The translations under genes were made by a program, and so were the position numbers. Below the pieces are notes generated by a model. It searched no databases and was not told where the DNA came from. It saw nothing but the letters and a program-made list of their open reading frames with translations. This document shows positions 48,838 to 58,560 of a stretch of 64,000 nucleotides of DNA, piece after piece. Source of the stretch: Dermatophagoides farinae (taxonomy: Eukaryota > Arthropoda > Arachnida > Sarcoptiformes > Pyroglyphidae); the NCBI RefSeq assembly GCF_024713945.1, contig NC_134680.1, positions 315,001 through 379,000 on the forward strand. The letters run 5' to 3'. Every line of letters begins with the position of its first letter. The stretch's first letter is position 1.

Positions 48838-49327
48838 GAATTTTTTTTATTTTGGCTGACAAAACAATGAATGAATGCTCACAAACAACATCCTGTGGAC
48901 ATTATTCTTCATTATTATTATTTTAATGATTATTATGAATAATATAATAAGAATAAATAAATTGAAAAAAAAATTACAAAAAAAATGATTTTTTATTTTT
49001 TCCAAATATTTTTTTGATTGAAATTTTTTTCTGTTTTCCATCGATAGATGGTGCTGATAGGCGTGTTCTTTTTCCATTTTTTTCTCTCTCTCTCTGTTTA
49101 CTTCGCAGTTGTTTTTGATTTGGTGCTCAAAGTTTCTTTCTTCATCGTCTTTATCTGTTTCTGTTGTTGTTTTCTTCTTCGATGCTTAATACTTGCATTG
49201 ACCTTATTTCATCTTCATCATTTTTGTTTTAACAAAATTCTGTTTTTTTTCCAAAGAATTTCCTATTCTATTCTTGTTTGTTTTCTTCTGTGATCTTCTG
49301 AAATAAATTTGATCCAAAAAATAAATA
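48838..49327. other. spacer between RPL17 and the TMEM127-like gene
   Basis: 490 bp of AT-rich spacer with the RPL17 3' UTR (AATAAA near 48954) and the promoter of the next plus-strand gene. A CT-rich run near 49082 is visible; nothing else was recognised. Confidence 0.5.
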
Positions 49328-51344
49328 ATGCCTGAAATAAGGCCTGAATTCACACGTTTCTATCATGATTTGGCAACACGTTTTCATTCTGGTATAAATA
49401 ATATTCGTTCATTTGGACAACAGATTACGACAAGATTTCATAATAATGATAGTGGTGGCAGTGCAATTGATGATAATTCCATTGAAAATAATGATAACAA
49501 CAACAACAATAATAATGATGGCTCATCAACAAATCAACCACCAAGTAATAGTATGAATCCATTTCTTGATTCATCCACAAATAATAATGATCCATTGAAT
49601 CCATCGAATGTTACATCATGTTCAACGAATCGTTCATCGAATACAAATCGTAAGTTGAAATTCTTTGTGAAAAACAAAAAATTCTTTCAATGTTTCTATA
49701 TTATCATTTTTTTCAGGCTCAAATCGACGATCATCATCACGTCATCATCATCATCATCATCATCGTCATCATTCACAAACATCATCATGTCGTGACCGAG
49801 AATATCATCGACAAGCATATCATCCATATTTGTTTAGTAGTAATAATCATCATCATCATTTAAATTCATCACCAAATAATGTTAGCATAATTCATCGAAA
49901 TGGTCTAATTACATTACGTTCACTTGATGATTATCATTATAAAGATCGTAATGTATTGGCTGCTATATTATCGATAATTGTTATTGCAATATTGGCCACG
50001 GCATTAGTACAACCAAAATGGTTCTCTATCTATAATGATCTTTGTGTACCGACAACAACACCGCAACAACAGCAACAACAACAACGTTATTTTACTAAAT
50101 CAGATAATTCTGTTGATAAAGGTATATTGTAAGATCGAAAAAAAAATTATGTTTCATAATATTTTTTTTTTGTTAATTCTTTAGTAAACACGATTAATAA
50201 TAATCCATTAGCCTCATCGTCGACAATATTTAATTTACAACTATCACCAAAACATCATTATACACAGTATAGGCCACAATATTATCATCATAATAATGGT
50301 CCATTTCATTCATCGTATTCAACATCCTATCAATTGACACCCGTTACTATTTATGGTTTAACACCAGATTTTAAAACATGTGCTAATGCACAGATTCTAG
50401 CATTGAAACGTACAATTATTGGCCTATGTTTTTTAGCTATAATGTGTACATTGGTACAATTTTTTATGGATACAATGGGAACCTCCAGCCACCATAATCG
50501 TGGTGCTGGTGCTGGAAAATGGTGGCTAAATTCAATGCGTCAATATGCTGTTGGAAATATTCTATGCGTCATATTTTGCGTCTTAATAATTGGCCTTTGT
50601 TATTTTATAAGCCTCCTATATGAACGTGTACAGCTGCAACAATTATTTGAAACGAAAACACCAATATCTCCACAACAACAACAACCAAATGCTGTTTGGA
50701 TCAAAAGTCGTATGATTAGCCGTGCAACATTATTTGCGACTACAACAACAACGGCCAATGGTGGTGGTGGTGGTGGTGGCGGTGGCAGTATTGTTCAACC
50801 ATTAGATTACCTTACTATCCATCAGATTGAAGTAAAATTTGAACTATCCTATTATCTAATTACATTGGCTGGTTTTCTATCGATTCTTGCTTCTGCTGCT
50901 AATCTATTTCGTCGTCCAAGACAAATATTTATTGAACGTATTGGTGGTTTCAATGATGGATGTAGCTATAATGGCCGTTATCATCACCATCAACATAATC
51001 GTTCATTAATGGCACGACGTTTACGATCAACATCAAATGGCAATCATTATCACAATAATGGTGATGAAAATTCATTACTAAATTCTGATGTATTATTGAA
51101 TAATTCATTAGAATCATCATCATCAAACACAACACCAACATCATCATCATCACCATATGATTTATTTACAAATTGGACACTTTATTGTACAAATTCCAAT
51201 AATAATAATAATCATTCAACATCAACAAATGGTCATCATTCATCATCGATTATAATGCCACCGTCAACACTGCCACCACCGCCATCATCTATTATACCTC
51301 ATTCATCAGCATCGTGTCCACCACCACCACCATATTCGCCTTGA
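49328..51344 (+). CDS. TMEM127: TMEM127-like four-pass membrane protein with long N-terminal extension
   Basis: Human TMEM127 is an endosomal/lysosomal membrane protein that dampens mTORC1 signalling. Three exons (49328-49649, 49717-50121, 50185-51344; introns of 67 and 63 nt) give about 628 residues, over twice the human 238. The first roughly 185 residues are low complexity (Asn, His, Ser). Four hydrophobic segments follow at about 187-206, 319-338, 361-386 and 465-484. The best family matches are the fourth-segment text YYLITLAGFLSILASAANLF (human YLVAGAGGASILATAANLL), the spacing before it, and the Pro-rich end PPPPPYSP (human PPPAYTP). Of two possible donors at the end of exon 2, only AAAG|GTATAT keeps the frame. 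The family call is good; the large inserts are odd. Confidence 0.8.
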
Positions 51345-52270: not shown

Positions 52271-55200
52271 ATGATGATGAATAAACCGCAGAAAACATTG
52301 AACGACATTGATATCTATGACATGGATGATGTTCATCATCATCATGATGATGAAGATGATGATGGTAAACTTATACAAAAACAACAACGAGAACATCGCA
52401 GCCGCCGTCGACAACAACAACAAAGCCATCATAATCATCATCATCATCAAGATGATGATAATAATCATGACATTATCATCATCGGTAATGGTGGTAATGA
52501 ATCACAAAATTCAAATTATTTTACCGCTAAAAGTCAATTGATAAAATCAAGGTAAGTTTTTTCAACTATAAATAAAAAAATTCTTGATAAAGAGACAATT
52601 CGAATGTTTTCTTTTCCTTTCTTTCAAAAAACATTCGATTCTATTTTGACCTTGTCATCATCATTCATCATCATCATAAATTTTTTTGTTTTGTTTTTTT
52701 TTGATGTTTTTGTTTTCATTTTATTGTGAACATTTCTTGGCAAATAATAAATTTCGATTTATATTTACACCCGTCGTTGTTGTGTAATGCCAATAATAGC
52801 GGATAATGATCGGTAATACTTCAAAGTTTTTTTTTTTTTTTTTTTTTTTATTATAGAAATAAACCCCTATACCTTTATAAATAGGGATAAAAATTTATAT
52901 ACAAAAATAATAAATTATAAACATTTATATATCAATAATAAAAATTCAAATAATTGCACAGGAAATTTTGTAATCCAAATCGGCAAGGTCTCTTCATGTA
53001 AAGATAAACCACACCGGTTCTCAATCTGGAAACGAGGACTCGCAAATCGTTGACAATAGCAAATTAAATGTATAGAATTTTGAGTATCTATTCCACACCA
53101 GCACGATGAGTCAGTAGAATACCCAATATTATATAAATAATGACGAAATTTACCATGTCCGGATAAAAATTGAACTAAAGTAAAATTTAGATCAATATAG
53201 TATGATAAACGATCATAAATAGACGGGAAGAAGCGTCTTGTAACACTTCCATCTCTACTTGTTTTCCAGCGATTATCCCAATAATAAAACATTATATTTT
53301 TCAAAAAATATTTTGCCAAGGAAACTGGACAAAAATCATACGAAATATAAGAGAGATTTGTAGCATCTTTTGCATGTTGATCAGCCAGTTCATTACCAAG
53401 ATAGCCAGAATGTGAAGGTATCCATTGAAGACAAAAATGTATTCCAACCAAATTTAATTGAATACCATGAACCAATAAATCATTACTTTTACTTGAACAA
53501 CAAGCAAGAAGAGCAGAATATGAATCAATAAAGATTTTCGCGGATTGATTATTCCTTTTTAACCATTCAGATGCTTGATAGATTGCAAATAATTCAGCTT
53601 GAAAAATGGAACATGAATCAGCCAAACGAAATTTTAAAATATCAATAGATTGATTAGAATTAGCAGGAAAAATCACAACTGCACACCCAACATGACCGGC
53701 CAATTTTGAACCATCAGTATAAATATGATAATTGTGATTAAAATTACAAACATTATTTAAAAAATTAAAAGATACAGATGGATGGTGAAAATCCTCAACA
53801 GGCAACGTTAATTGAAATTTTAAATTTGATAAGTGATCCACTTCAAAGTATTTATAGATAAAATGTTAAAATCATTTAAAAGTGTGTGAAAGGAATTTTT
53901 TTTTTTTTTTGAAAATTTTTTTAAATTTCCAGTATTTAGAGATTAAAAATCATAATCTTTCCACCATGTGATTGATTTGATTCAATTGATTAGCATCAGG
54001 ACAAATATAATTCATTAATAGGTCGTTGATTTTCACTAGAAAAAAAATTTATCTGTTTTTTTTTTGGTTTTTTTAGCCATATCAAAATCCAAAAATCTAA
54101 ATAAACGATGATGATGAAGATGCTCAAGTATTTTTTTTTTGTTTCTTTCAAGGTAATATCAATGGATTTTTGTTGAGATTTAATCAAATCAAATCAAACC
54201 AAAAAAAAAAAAAAAAAAAAAATTTCAAAAGTTGATAATGATGAAAAAAGCTATTGATTGAAACCTGTTTCTATAGTATATATAGCCATCATCATTATAT
54301 TTGTGTATTATAATGTGATTGTTGATTTCAATCTTTTCTTTCTCTGAAAAAAAACCGTTAATCATCATCATCATCATTGTTCATAAACATTCATCATTTG
54401 ATTTGATTCATTTCATGTTGCTGTTTTTCCAAAACAAAACCAAAACGATAAATTCACCACTGAACAAAGGGTATTGTATTTGTGTGACATTTATTTTTAT
54501 CGTTTTAATAACAAAAAAAAATTCTGATTGATAATCAAAAAGAAAAAAATGGTGATGAAGCAAATTTTGTGTTTCGTTTGTTTATATCAGTGTTTCCCAA
54601 CCTTTTTTTCTTCGCGTACCCCCGGGGGTTTTTTCTTTACAAAATTCTAGTACATACAAAGTTACCTTTTGCATATCCCACGAACCCCCAGGGGTTCGCG
54701 AACCACCGGTTGGGAATCACTGGTTTATATAAAGTATGATTCAATTTCCTTTTTTTTATATATAGAAAAGTAAACTTAACTTGAATCATCATTTGACGAT
54801 TGTTGATGATTTGAAAAAATTTTTTTTTTTACTCATCTCCAAATGTGACAATAAATTCAAGTGGTCATGAACGTTACACACACACAGACACAAATTCGAT
54901 GATGAAAATCGATGATTTATTTTCAAACAGAAAAGAAAAAAAAATTAAACTTCCTTGTCGATAATAGTGTTCCAGAGAGAGAGAAAGAGAGAGAAAGCAA
55001 ACAGGCAAAAAAAGGTCGTTTCACTTTCACAGATCGATCGAAAATTGAATAATAATTTTTTTTTCATATAGCTCACAACCAGAAAGAGATTAATTTGTTT
55101 CAAATGAAAAAAAAAATTTGTCAACACAATTAATCCCAGAATTAGAATCACGAGAATAAAACACCAAAAAAAAATGTTCGCAATGAATTCGAATCAAAAC

Positions 55201-58200
55201 TATACAGATTCGAATCATGCTGATTTCCATTCATTCGATTCCAATCATTCGATTCGAATGATTCGAGTAATTGTCATCATCATCATCATTATCCAAAATT
55301 ATTCAGATTTCAAAATGTTCATTATGGCAATGATGATGATGATGATGGCAATTATTTTTGTTGTTTGTTTTTACCATATGGTCTATTGTTGTTATTTTGT
55401 TTTGTTTATTGAAAAATAAAAAACAAAAAAAAATGTCATTCATCCATAATCATTATCATAATCATTCATCATCATCATCATCGTCATCATCGTCATCGTC
55501 ATCATCCACACCATCATTATCGATATCGATGCCAACATTATCAAAACATTTAATCATGATAACATTGAATATAATTCGTAATTCATTACCGGATTCTATT
55601 CATGGTAGCAGGTATGGAGCGAAAAATTTCTTCAGAAAAAAAAATGTTTTTCTAAGAAAAAAGTTTCCGTAAAAAAATTCAAAAAAAAACATTCGGATTC
55701 GAACAGAATTTGTTTGTTTGTTTGTCTTGACATTTACCCCATATATAGTATAGGTCTTATGATTGAGAATTCTTGAATCAGGATTGCATCATCATCATCA
55801 TCATCAAGAAGAATAAAAACAAAATGTCATCTGTGTGCTTGTTTTTATTTTTTTTTTTTTTTTTTTTGGCAAAAACAACAACAACAACAGTAAAAAAAGT
55901 CATGTCATATCATATATAGAAAGAATATATTATTACCACACACACATACATTTCCGTTGGTATTTACAAGATGCGTCTACTACTTCAAACAAATAAAAAG
56001 AAAAAAAAATTTTACCAAATTGCAGCAGCTACAGCAGTAAGCAGCAGGGAATACCTCTCTTATTACCAGTTTTTTTTTCAATATTCCAATTCAAAAACTA
56101 TTATTATTATTATTATATATTTAACATTGAAAATATTGTATTTTTTTTTGCTGTTATCCATTTTCATATACTTCCTCTTAACCACATTCTTTCGTGTTAT
56201 TATATATGAGTGTGTGTGTATGTGGTTTAGACATATTCGATTTGTTGTGATAGTGGTGGTGGCAGTTTTTTTTTAAGAAGACACGAAAGATTCATTGAAA
56301 AAAGAACTTTTTGATTTGCTCCGTCTCTGTGTGTGTGTGTGTGTGTGTGTGTGTTTGTTTGTGATAATCTAAATGTTGAATATTTTTGTCTATATATTGG
56401 CCATATACATCTTATACATCTTAAATTACCATTCGTTACTGCCGAACTGAATAACTTGAAACCTAAATAATGATGATGATGATGATGATGATGATAATGA
56501 TTATAATAAACACATGAGACATTCATTCGTTCAAAGAAAACTGTGAAGAAGAGAAACAACAGAAAGCAAAAACAAAGAAAAATCTGGTTTTTTCTTTCTC
56601 ACTTTCTTAGAACGAAAACAAAATTTTTCTCCATTCGAATTTCAAGTTTTGTTGCTGTTGTTGTTGTTGTTGTTTTTTGCATTTATTGGCCAGTTAGTTT
56701 TAATTTGTTTGTTTCTGGCCATTTATTAATCCATTTTTTTTGGTAATTGTGAAAATTGAATTTTTTTGTTGTTGTTGTTGTTGTTTCATTTTCTTTCATC
56801 TTTTCAGGTCACCATTAACGGCCGCATCATATTCAAGTCTTGATACTACTATTACTACTGGTTCAGATTTATTTAACCACAGCTGAAATATCGACAACAA
56901 CATCATCAGTGGTGATCACTCCGATGACAACGTCCACCGACGATAATAATCATCGAAATAATAAACGAAAAATAGCATCAATGGATTCAGAAAGTAATCG
57001 TCCACGTATTAAACAACAGCCATCGTTAACATTATATTTGGCTGCCGTTTCTGCATTACTTGGTGCATTAGGTATGTGTTTCATTATTTTTCAATCGAGT
57101 TTGAAATTTGAACTTCAAATTTTTTTTTTTTTTTTTTGATCAAACAGGCATGGGTCTAGTACTTGGTTGGACGGCACCAGCATTAATAACAATGGCTGAA
57201 GATGGTAGTGAACCAAAATTAGATGATAAAACTGATAAAGATGCAATTACATGGATTGGATCGAGTATGACATTAGGTGCATTGTGTGGTGCACTATTTT
57301 CCGGTACGATATCACAATTTTTTGGACGTAAAAAAGCCCTTATTATCTATGGAATACCATTCACAATTGGTTGGGTACTATTGGTTTTAGCCAAAAATGT
57401 TACACTTTTAATTGTTGGCCGTGTTGTTTGTGGTATTAGTTGTGGTTTACTTTCCGGTACTGCACCGTCATATGTGGTTGAAATTTCAACCATCGATATT
57501 CGTGGTATGATTGGTGCTTGTTTTCAGGTAATATTTTTATTTATTTTTTTTTTTTTTGTTATCGAATATATGATCTGATTTTCTATTCTAGCTTTTCGTC
57601 ACAATCGGCATCCTTCTTGTCTATTTATTTGGAGCTTTTATTACATGGCGTCCATTAGCCGGTGTATCAATGATACCGACAATCATAATGATGATTTGTA
57701 TGTTTTTCATGCCTGAAAGTCCATCATGGCTAATGTCAAAAGGCAAAGTATCTGAAGCAACACAATCATTACGACGATTACGTGGTTCCAATAGTGATAC
57801 CGAACAAGAGATACGTATGTTACAGCAAGCTGAAATTGATAAACAAGGTGATGAGTTTAAATTCAGCAGCTACAGTCGTCGACCACATTTAATGCCATTC
57901 ATATTGTCACTATTGTTGATGTTGTTCCAACAATTTAGCGGTATTAATGCCGTAATGTTCTATGCTACATCAATATTTTCTGAAGCCGGAAGTTCAATCG
58001 AGCCAAAATATGCAACGATTATTATTGGTGTCTCACAAGTTATTGCTACTGGTGTCGGTAGTTCACTTGTTGATCGTCTTGGACGAAAAATCCTTCTCGG
58101 CAGTTCGGCCCTATTACATGTTATTTCATTAGCCGCATTAGGTGTATATTATTATCTTGCCGATAAACATCCGGATACGGCAAAAAGTCTTGGCTGGTTA

Positions 58201-58560
58201 CCATTAGTCAGTCTAGTCGTATTTATTATTGGATTTTCAATCGGTTTCGGACCGGTTCCTTGGTTAATGGTAGCCGAAATTACACCAACCGATTCACGTG
58301 CTATGACCAGTGCCATTGCAACTGCATTCAATTGGACATGTGCATTTTTAATTACAAAAAATTTTGAATTACTCAAAGATACTTTCACTACGGAAGGCAC
58401 ATTTTTTTCATTCGCAGCAATGGCCATTGTAAGCATAATATTTGTTGTATGTATGCTACCAGAAACCAAAGGTAAATCAAGTGAAGAGATTGCAAAAAAT
58501 TTCAATCATCATCATCATCATCGTCATCAAATCATCGTAGCAATAATAAAGTGGAATTAG
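52271..58560 (+). CDS. SLC2/Tret1-like facilitative sugar transporter
   Basis: A major-facilitator sugar carrier of the plasma membrane, close to insect trehalose transporters (Tret1) and GLUT6/8. The core is in exons 56808-57071, 57148-57527 and 57592-58560 (introns of 76 and 64 nt). Signatures are LGALGMGLVLGWTAPAL (TM1), FFGRKKALI, PESPSWLMSKG, QQFSGINAVMFYATSIF, DRLGRKILL, GPVPWLMVAEITPTDSRA and the closing PETKGKSSEEI. An upstream first coding exon (52271-52551, His/Asp/Gln-rich) ends AG|GTAAGT in phase 2. A second candidate first exon is at 55433-55611. Read from either one, the exon at 56808 meets a TGA at 56884; a small intron starting at 56837 and ending at 56882 or 56909 would remove it and keep the frame. 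Without that intron, translation could begin at the ATG at 56924 (about 498 residues). Confidence 0.85.
52828..53839 (-). mobile_element. 5'-truncated LINE (RNase H and C-terminal part only)
   Basis: A short LINE copy on the minus strand with a poly(A) tail (T-run 52828-52849 on the plus strand). It keeps only the RNase H domain, the C-terminal Cys/His cluster and the 3' UTR; the reverse transcriptase is missing. The copy is bounded by a perfect 10-bp target duplication, ACTTCAAAGT, at 52818-52827 and 53840-53849, which fixes both ends. It sits inside the first intron of the sugar transporter gene. It is related to, but clearly diverged from, the copy at 19311-21702, so it represents a second family or subfamily. 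Confidence 0.9.
52915..53839 (-). CDS. LINE ORF2 C-terminal fragment: RNase H
   Basis: An open frame of about 308 codons that begins at the truncation point with no ATG of its own (the first codon, GTG, straddles the target-duplication border). The RNase H acidic residues are in place: TDGSK, QAELFAI, FIDSYSA and NELADQHAK. The region after the domain has C-x-C-x8-H-x4-C (CWCGIDTQNSIHLICYC), nearly the spacing seen in the larger copy. The frame is undamaged over its whole length, which argues for a young insertion. It is not expected to make a working protein. Confidence 0.85.
54201..54222. repeat. poly-A tract (A22)
   Basis: Twenty-two A in the intron between the LINE fragment and the MITE. 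No retroelement body is visible next to it. Confidence 0.85.
54588..54722. mobile_element. hAT-type MITE, 135 bp
   Basis: A small non-autonomous DNA transposon. Terminal inverted repeats are CAGTGTTTCCCAACC (54588-54602) and, on the other strand, CAGTGATTCCCAACC (54722-54708), matching at 14 of 15 positions. An exact 8-bp target duplication, GTTTATAT, stands at 54580-54587 and 54723-54730. The CAGTG...CACTG ends and the 8-bp duplication are hallmarks of the hAT superfamily. Subterminal text also pairs (TTCGCG with ACCCC on both sides), and the inside has GC-rich palindromes unlike the host DNA. It contains no open frame and so depends on a transposase elsewhere. Confidence 0.92.
55433..55611 (+). 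CDS. candidate alternative first coding exon of the sugar transporter
   Basis: It starts at an ATG (MSFIHNHYHNH, then a Ser run) and ends AGCAG|GTATGG in phase 2, the same phase and the same AG|GT ending as the upstream first exon at 52271-52551. The last 20 residues (around LNIIRNSLPDSIHGSR) are not repetitive. Spliced to 56808 it reads on as SPLTAASYS. The equal phase of two independent upstream exons supports alternative promoters giving different cytoplasmic N-termini. No transcript evidence is available. Confidence 0.55.
55612..56807. other. intron of the transporter gene before the core exons
   Basis: 1.2 kb of AT-rich sequence with CAT arrays, a T run near 55849, and (GT)n at 56329-56354. 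It ends in a T-rich tract and TTTTCAG at the acceptor for 56808. No gene or mobile element was recognised. Confidence 0.6.
56329..56354. repeat. (GT)13 microsatellite
   Basis: Thirteen GT units inside an intron of the sugar transporter gene. Confidence 0.9.

Follow-up and report, generated by a model that had tools for sequence, protein, structure and literature searches.

In the 64-kb window analyzed here, a stretch of the Dermatophagoides farinae genome, Pfam matches place TMEM127 (49326-51341) and a sugar transporter (Sugar_tr, 57105-58557) on the plus strand. On the minus strand, an RNase H relic at 52918-53865 resembles a non-LTR retrotransposon, presumably its origin. Ahead of the Sugar_tr match, an open reading stretch (56819-57136) includes a methionine at 56924 and looks to us like the first coding exon of the transporter. 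The element that is the subject of this report, a MITE at 54588-54722, lies between TMEM127 and the transporter and would be 2.2 kb upstream of the transporter's likely first codon at 56924. Its placement inside a transporter intron by the first-pass annotation was therefore not borne out, although it may still sit within an intron of the 5'-UTR.

The MITE is 135 bp long, is read on the plus strand, and begins and ends with 15-bp terminal inverted repeats. An end-motif search located these repeats at 54588-54602 (CAGTGTTTCCCAACC, plus strand) and 54708-54722 (CAGTGATTCCCAACC, minus strand), and they are identical at 14 of 15 positions. Directly outside the left end stands the 8-bp string GTTTATAT (54580-54587), which is repeated exactly outside the right end (54723-54730) as a target-site duplication. 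The element is 47% GC; the window as a whole is 30% GC, and the 1 kb on either side 26%. When folded as single-stranded DNA, the MITE strand forms one end-to-end hairpin of -28.5 kcal/mol; shuffled versions reached -12.3 ± 2.6 kcal/mol (z = -6.2), and none of 200 folded equally well. The inner arms of the subterminal hairpin occupy 54611-54630 on the left and 54683-54702 on the right, where the arm overlaps the palindrome GTTCGCGAAC (54694-54703). These results agree with the first-pass description of a 135-bp element with inverted ends, an exact 8-bp duplication, and a GC-rich, palindromic interior unlike the host DNA.

Copies, empty site and target preference

We searched the genome (62,435,336 bases in 22 contigs) with the MITE and obtained 26 matches, all 26 candidates being scored, which resolved into 24 elements with the same ends: the window copy and 23 others. 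We refer to these as family 1 and to the group that includes the window copy as subgroup A, both names being coined in the present analysis. In keeping with a dust-mite source, a group-2-allergen-like protein encoded by this genome had chains of Der p 2 and Der f 2 as its best PDB matches, although it is related to Der f 2 and not that allergen itself. Family 1 comprises 21 short elements (118-136 bp) and three long ones (L009, L010, and L011). Exact 8-bp duplications were found in 21 of the 23 elements compared together, namely in 19 of the 21 short copies and in L009 and L010. In L021 the duplication is altered, and L022 has lost its right end. L011, the 24th element, was judged separately and has one mismatch in its duplication.

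The exact end motif had 41 matches genome-wide, all of which fall within the 24 family-1 elements when coordinates are tallied. Allowing up to one mismatch raised the number to 98, other families included, versus 2 for a reversed-pattern control; six of the 57 one-mismatch matches lie in family-1 elements and many in a second family described below. With 20 of the one-mismatch loci fetched, the family may be larger than the 24 elements counted here. One family-1 MITE, L015 (C6:3528498-3528633), lies 18 bp away from an element of the second family (C6:3528652).

Subgroup A contains seven copies, the window MITE included, with at most one substitution between any pair (mean divergence 0.2%). The five 123-bp copies differ pairwise by at most two substitutions (mean 0.65%), the four B copies have a mean divergence of 1.5%, and the outlying copies L023 and L024 reach 8%; these values count substitutions and exclude indels, and L013, L021, and L022 stand outside the groups. 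L001 and L003 are identical in sequence and occupy different sites. Since seven copies at different sites are separated by at most one substitution, the family-1 MITE likely underwent a recent burst, in keeping with the first-pass view of the element as recent. As expected of MITEs, the elements are short and non-coding, have conserved ends, and are present in 21 copies of 118-136 bp at mostly unrelated sites.

When we compared 280 bp of flank per side (E 1e-5, low-complexity masking on), 19 of the 24 elements showed no flank similarity to any other element. The five with shared flanks (L010, L012, L013, L020, and L021) all lie in one dispersed host repeat, for which at least 83 matching pieces were found with 40 of 127 candidates scored. 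Element-free copies of the repeat that hosts L012 abut at the insertion point. One of these, L112, reads GGTGCAGTCATT-CAATAGAA-CATAGAAAGAG, with one CAATAGAA compared with two in L012, and is identical to L012 over the 22 bases before and the 14 bases after CAATAGAA. L112 is an exact empty site for the L012 insertion. L012 and L013 show no differences over 735 bp, and in L021 what looks like the same insertion sits within a more diverged host copy; the host repeat thus multiplied after the MITE had landed in it. L010 and L020 lie in this dispersed repeat at another, apparently shared, site. Fewer than 24 independent insertions are therefore represented, given that L012, L013, and L021 apparently stem from one event and that the flanks of L010 and L020 are homologous.

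These data bear on two other accounts of the element. At up to two mismatches, the end motif matched the 64-kb window at two sites only, the two MITE ends, but two matches also arose in 2 of 100 shuffled windows, and thus the window by itself is no proof of an element. The shuffles would allow a chance inverted repeat that happens to adjoin a chance duplication, yet the copies elsewhere in the genome and the exact empty site rule out such an origin, to which we assign practically no probability. Passive spread, as a passenger of segmental duplications or of other repeats and not by the element's own transposition, does describe the L012/L013/L021 group, given the identity of L012 and L013 and the apparently shared insertion of L021. 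For family 1 as a whole it is ruled out by the 19 elements without flank similarity and by 20 distinct duplication strings, and we consider it very improbable. Instead, the 135-bp stretch is a genuine transposon relic, recently copied, of the known cut-and-paste kind. Two further first-pass points held up: the ends are clean, as seen from the unrelated flanks and the exact empty site, and the proposed genome-wide search for more copies with the same ends and different 8-bp flanks returned 24 elements with 20 distinct duplications.

In every one of the 20 distinct exact duplications (L012 and L013 counted once), position 4 is T and position 5 is A. Taking the most frequent letter at each of positions 2-7 gives TCTAGA, and the outer positions are mixed. 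The number of independent sites is at most 20, given that the flanks of L010 and L020 are homologous and their duplications are reverse complements of each other. The duplication consensus of Buster elements, as stated in the available part of Depra et al. 2012 (PMC3517528), is nnnTAnnn, a pattern present in each of the 20. The same part of that source gives 5 to 27 bp as the span of hAT terminal inverted repeats, which includes the 15-bp ends of the window MITE.

We hold with high confidence that the window MITE is a non-autonomous hAT transposon of Buster target type in D. farinae, an assignment made by target site and not by transposase tree. This basis would allow a hAT element outside Buster, for example of the Ac or Tip group, whose TA-centered target is shared among groups or derives from local AT-richness; the authors of the BuT2 study state that they did not themselves look into which targets the Tip group prefers (PMC3942097). 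However, AT-richness alone would not fix a central T followed by A in every duplication with the outer positions mixed, and a non-Buster hAT origin appears unlikely. The first-pass label of a hAT-like MITE stands with the Buster-type assignment, supported by the copies, the 8-bp nnnTAnnn duplications, the short inverted ends, and the empty site.

Long relatives and shared 42-bp arms

The long elements with family-1 ends measure 2,668 bp (L009, within C1:4140000-4143900), 2,004 bp (L010), and 820 bp (L011). The outermost ~38 and 42 bp are shared between short and long copies. The middle ~55 bp of the MITE is unmatched in the long copies, and plain internal deletion is therefore insufficient to account for the whole MITE. 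L009 and L010 contain arrays of a 42-bp minisatellite unit around a core, with forward units to its left and reverse units to its right. A 20-mer count allowing three mismatches gave 26 forward and 6 reverse units in L009, and 15 forward and 3 reverse units within L010. Just beyond the right end of L010 are more 42-bp units, along with a 78-bp piece that is 87% like the left subterminal part, so these arrays are not restricted to elements. The unit pattern had 488 genome matches at up to three mismatches and none in the control, and no 42-bp unit was found within the 64-kb window. A broken transposase segment makes up part of the core; it has ~92% DNA identity to a hAT transposase at locus L031 and runs in the direction opposite to a transposase remnant in L011.

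Inverted 42-bp arms were found at L009, L010, L113, L114, L115, and L116; these loci represent two families that are hAT-like and one more group of dispersed copies. The second family has ends CAGTGATTCTCAACC and GCGGCAC motifs in six of seven sequences counted. Its six short copies measure 66-164 bp, five of them with exact duplications, and 13 copies match the whole of a 192-bp left-end query at 97-100% identity. The long copy at C2:3570868-3572772, the one second-family long copy of which the right half was read, has an exact duplication, TTATAAGC, and the same inverted 42-bp arms. Seven of 20 fetched loci (L088, L091, L092, and L095-L098) were rejected as second-family members; they hold a different repeat beginning with CAGTGTTTCTCAACCATA.

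The third group (L113, L115, and L116) has the same 42-bp arms and near-identical flanks. GCGGCTC is present in L115 and in L031, and a stretch of the group, GCGGCTCTTT...GATTATTTGTGGCTC, appeared by eye to be similar to one in L031. Based on this motif and stretch, we tentatively place the third group with L031, and its classification as hAT is likewise tentative. Overall, inverted arms of this 42-bp unit occur in three families or groups, marked by GCGAAC, GCGGCAC, and GCGGCTC; the hAT-like character is clear for two of them and less sure for the third. GCGAAC was found in all 24 family-1 sequences (67 sites) and in none of 10 sequences from the two remaining sets. The whole window contains 8 GCGAAC sites, so the hexamer as such is no rarity. 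Its distribution suggests that GCGAAC marks putative family-specific binding sites for the transposase.

Transposase frames

No intact transposase frame is present in L009, L010, or L011, and no full-length transposase bounded by family-1 ends (CAGTGnTTCCCAACC) was found in this assembly. On its right-end side, L011 has a frame-broken transposase N-terminus that starts with MDRWLKTG and, after the break, reaches KRKYDDNYLQLGFHYIGDESEPKPLCVICE; we take this remnant to be ZBED/BED-like. A complete hAT transposase comprises a BED finger, an RNase H-like core, and a dimerisation region at the C-terminus. The 54-aa remnant had no Pfam match at E 1, and neither protein nor DNA searches of the genome found a second copy. 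Its matches to BED regions of hAT transposases were weak (39% over 36 aa with L031, E = 0.009; 33% over 39 aa with L067, E = 0.003). A first, short L011 peptide that matched L032, L033, and L034 (E = 0.047-0.62) was set aside as chance. The check set beforehand, a hAT transposase gene bounded by the same inverted repeats, thus came back negative apart from the broken N-terminus in L011. The suggestion of a possibly still mobilised family is unsupported in this assembly, in which the three long copies are without an intact transposase and the L011 remnant is single-copy.

The genome contains at least five PF05699 matches. Among them is L026, a 977-aa open frame with no family-1 ends within its 3.15-kb locus at up to three mismatches; L027/L028 and L032 are further matches. 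L033 and L034 (C7:2788000-2795000 and C7:2876000-2884000) are hAT transposase loci with equal scores and opposite orientation, ~88 kb apart, and are apparently an inverted duplication.

L031 (L031:2841-4694; C2:3118340-3120190) has an intact 617-aa hAT transposase frame, with Pfam matches to Dimer_Tnp_hAT and BED above the cut-off and to DUF4371 below it, and adjoins a gene that is presumably WBP11-like. L031 as the helper of family 1 is unsupported: its 9-kb locus has no family-1 ends at up to three mismatches, and the nine scattered end matches obtained at up to four mismatches, with C/T allowed at one place, we take as chance. GCGGCTC motifs lie close to both sides of the frame, and a different end-like sequence, CAGGGGTGGCCAAGC, is located on the reverse strand 167-181 bp past the stop. 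A 5' end matching CAGGGGTGGCCAAGC was not found at this locus, and none of seven AT-rich candidates for a flanking end pair with a duplication was convincing. As a test of whether L031 is domesticated, we compared it with the broken L009 fragment and found 26 differences, of which 5 are silent and 21 non-silent, including 5 stops. The resulting pN of 0.073 and pS of 0.079 give no sign of constraint in what is a weak test, the L009 side being a dead copy. In the PDB, L031 had no real relative, the best match being titin (E = 0.78).

Proposed mechanism, known systems and significance

We propose that a hAT transposase from a longer relative would act in trans and bind the inverted ends, and perhaps the subterminal GCGAACCCC repeats as well. 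Through cut-and-paste chemistry, it would excise the element and insert it at a staggered cut in an nTCTAGAn-like site, which would yield the 8-bp duplication. The near-identical forms, of which there are at least two (135/136 bp and 123 bp), appear as if they came from separate waves. The family-1 helper may have been lost, or may be missing from the assembly, leaving the frame-broken N-terminus in the 820-bp L011. The BED domains of Hermes bind the left end of that transposon, according to excerpts of PMC10368747.

Ends of hAT elements often start with CAG. The family-1 ends appear to resemble those of hAT-Charlie-type short elements of mammals such as MER20 (of the CAGTGnTTCyCAACC kind), and both seem to have subterminal GC-rich palindromes with CCCC/GGGG runs. 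In the part of PMC3517528 available to us, the Drosophila willistoni MITE Mar, a hAT element of Buster type, is similar to family 1 in being short and non-autonomous, in its 8-bp nnnTAnnn duplications, and in its modest copy number, recent mobilisation, and lack of an intact full-length relative. Unlike family 1, Mar has CAG(G/A)GGTAGGC ends and a fly host, and that part of the source makes no mention of minisatellite arms. A literature search of partial coverage found no published description of family 1.

In foldback elements, a core is flanked by tandem repeats that face in opposite directions. Opposed 42-bp arms around a core make the long relatives L009 and L010, and these only, foldback-like, similar to the foldback-like Tetris of Drosophila virilis as portrayed in a portion of PMC9659126. 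L009 and L010 differ from Tetris and Galileo in their hAT-type ends, their 8-bp nnnTAnnn duplications, and 42-bp arms common to more than one family. Galileo, itself foldback-like, is listed as a P-superfamily element (PMC4168063), unlike the hAT family 1. Foldback-like hAT elements may be described elsewhere, given the partial coverage of our literature search.

Between the family-1 arms lies a broken part of the transposase that we tentatively link to the third group, which suggests module exchange. Such exchange between hAT families would probably have proceeded by gap repair or recombination. Dust mites have no piRNAs and rely on siRNAs made by Dicer to keep transposons in check (PMC5805368). 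Transcripts of the mirrored arms could form double-stranded RNA and lead to joint silencing of the three families. The reading as a whole, a foldback module that shuttles between hAT families and whose arm transcripts feed the silencing of all three, is tentative, and we think it somewhat more doubtful than probable.

In its available part, the D. farinae assembly paper tabulates 736 DNA-transposon pieces that total 55,004 bp, or 0.09% of the genome (Hu et al. 2024, PMC11074847). Against those 736 pieces, near-identical copies from each of at least two hAT-like families are evident in the raw sequence. Together with their exact duplications, the near-identical copies are clean insertion markers for comparing strains of this important source of allergens. 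Whether transposons with inverted repeats supply the siRNA control that replaced piRNAs in dust mites could be tested naturally on the relatives with minisatellite arms.
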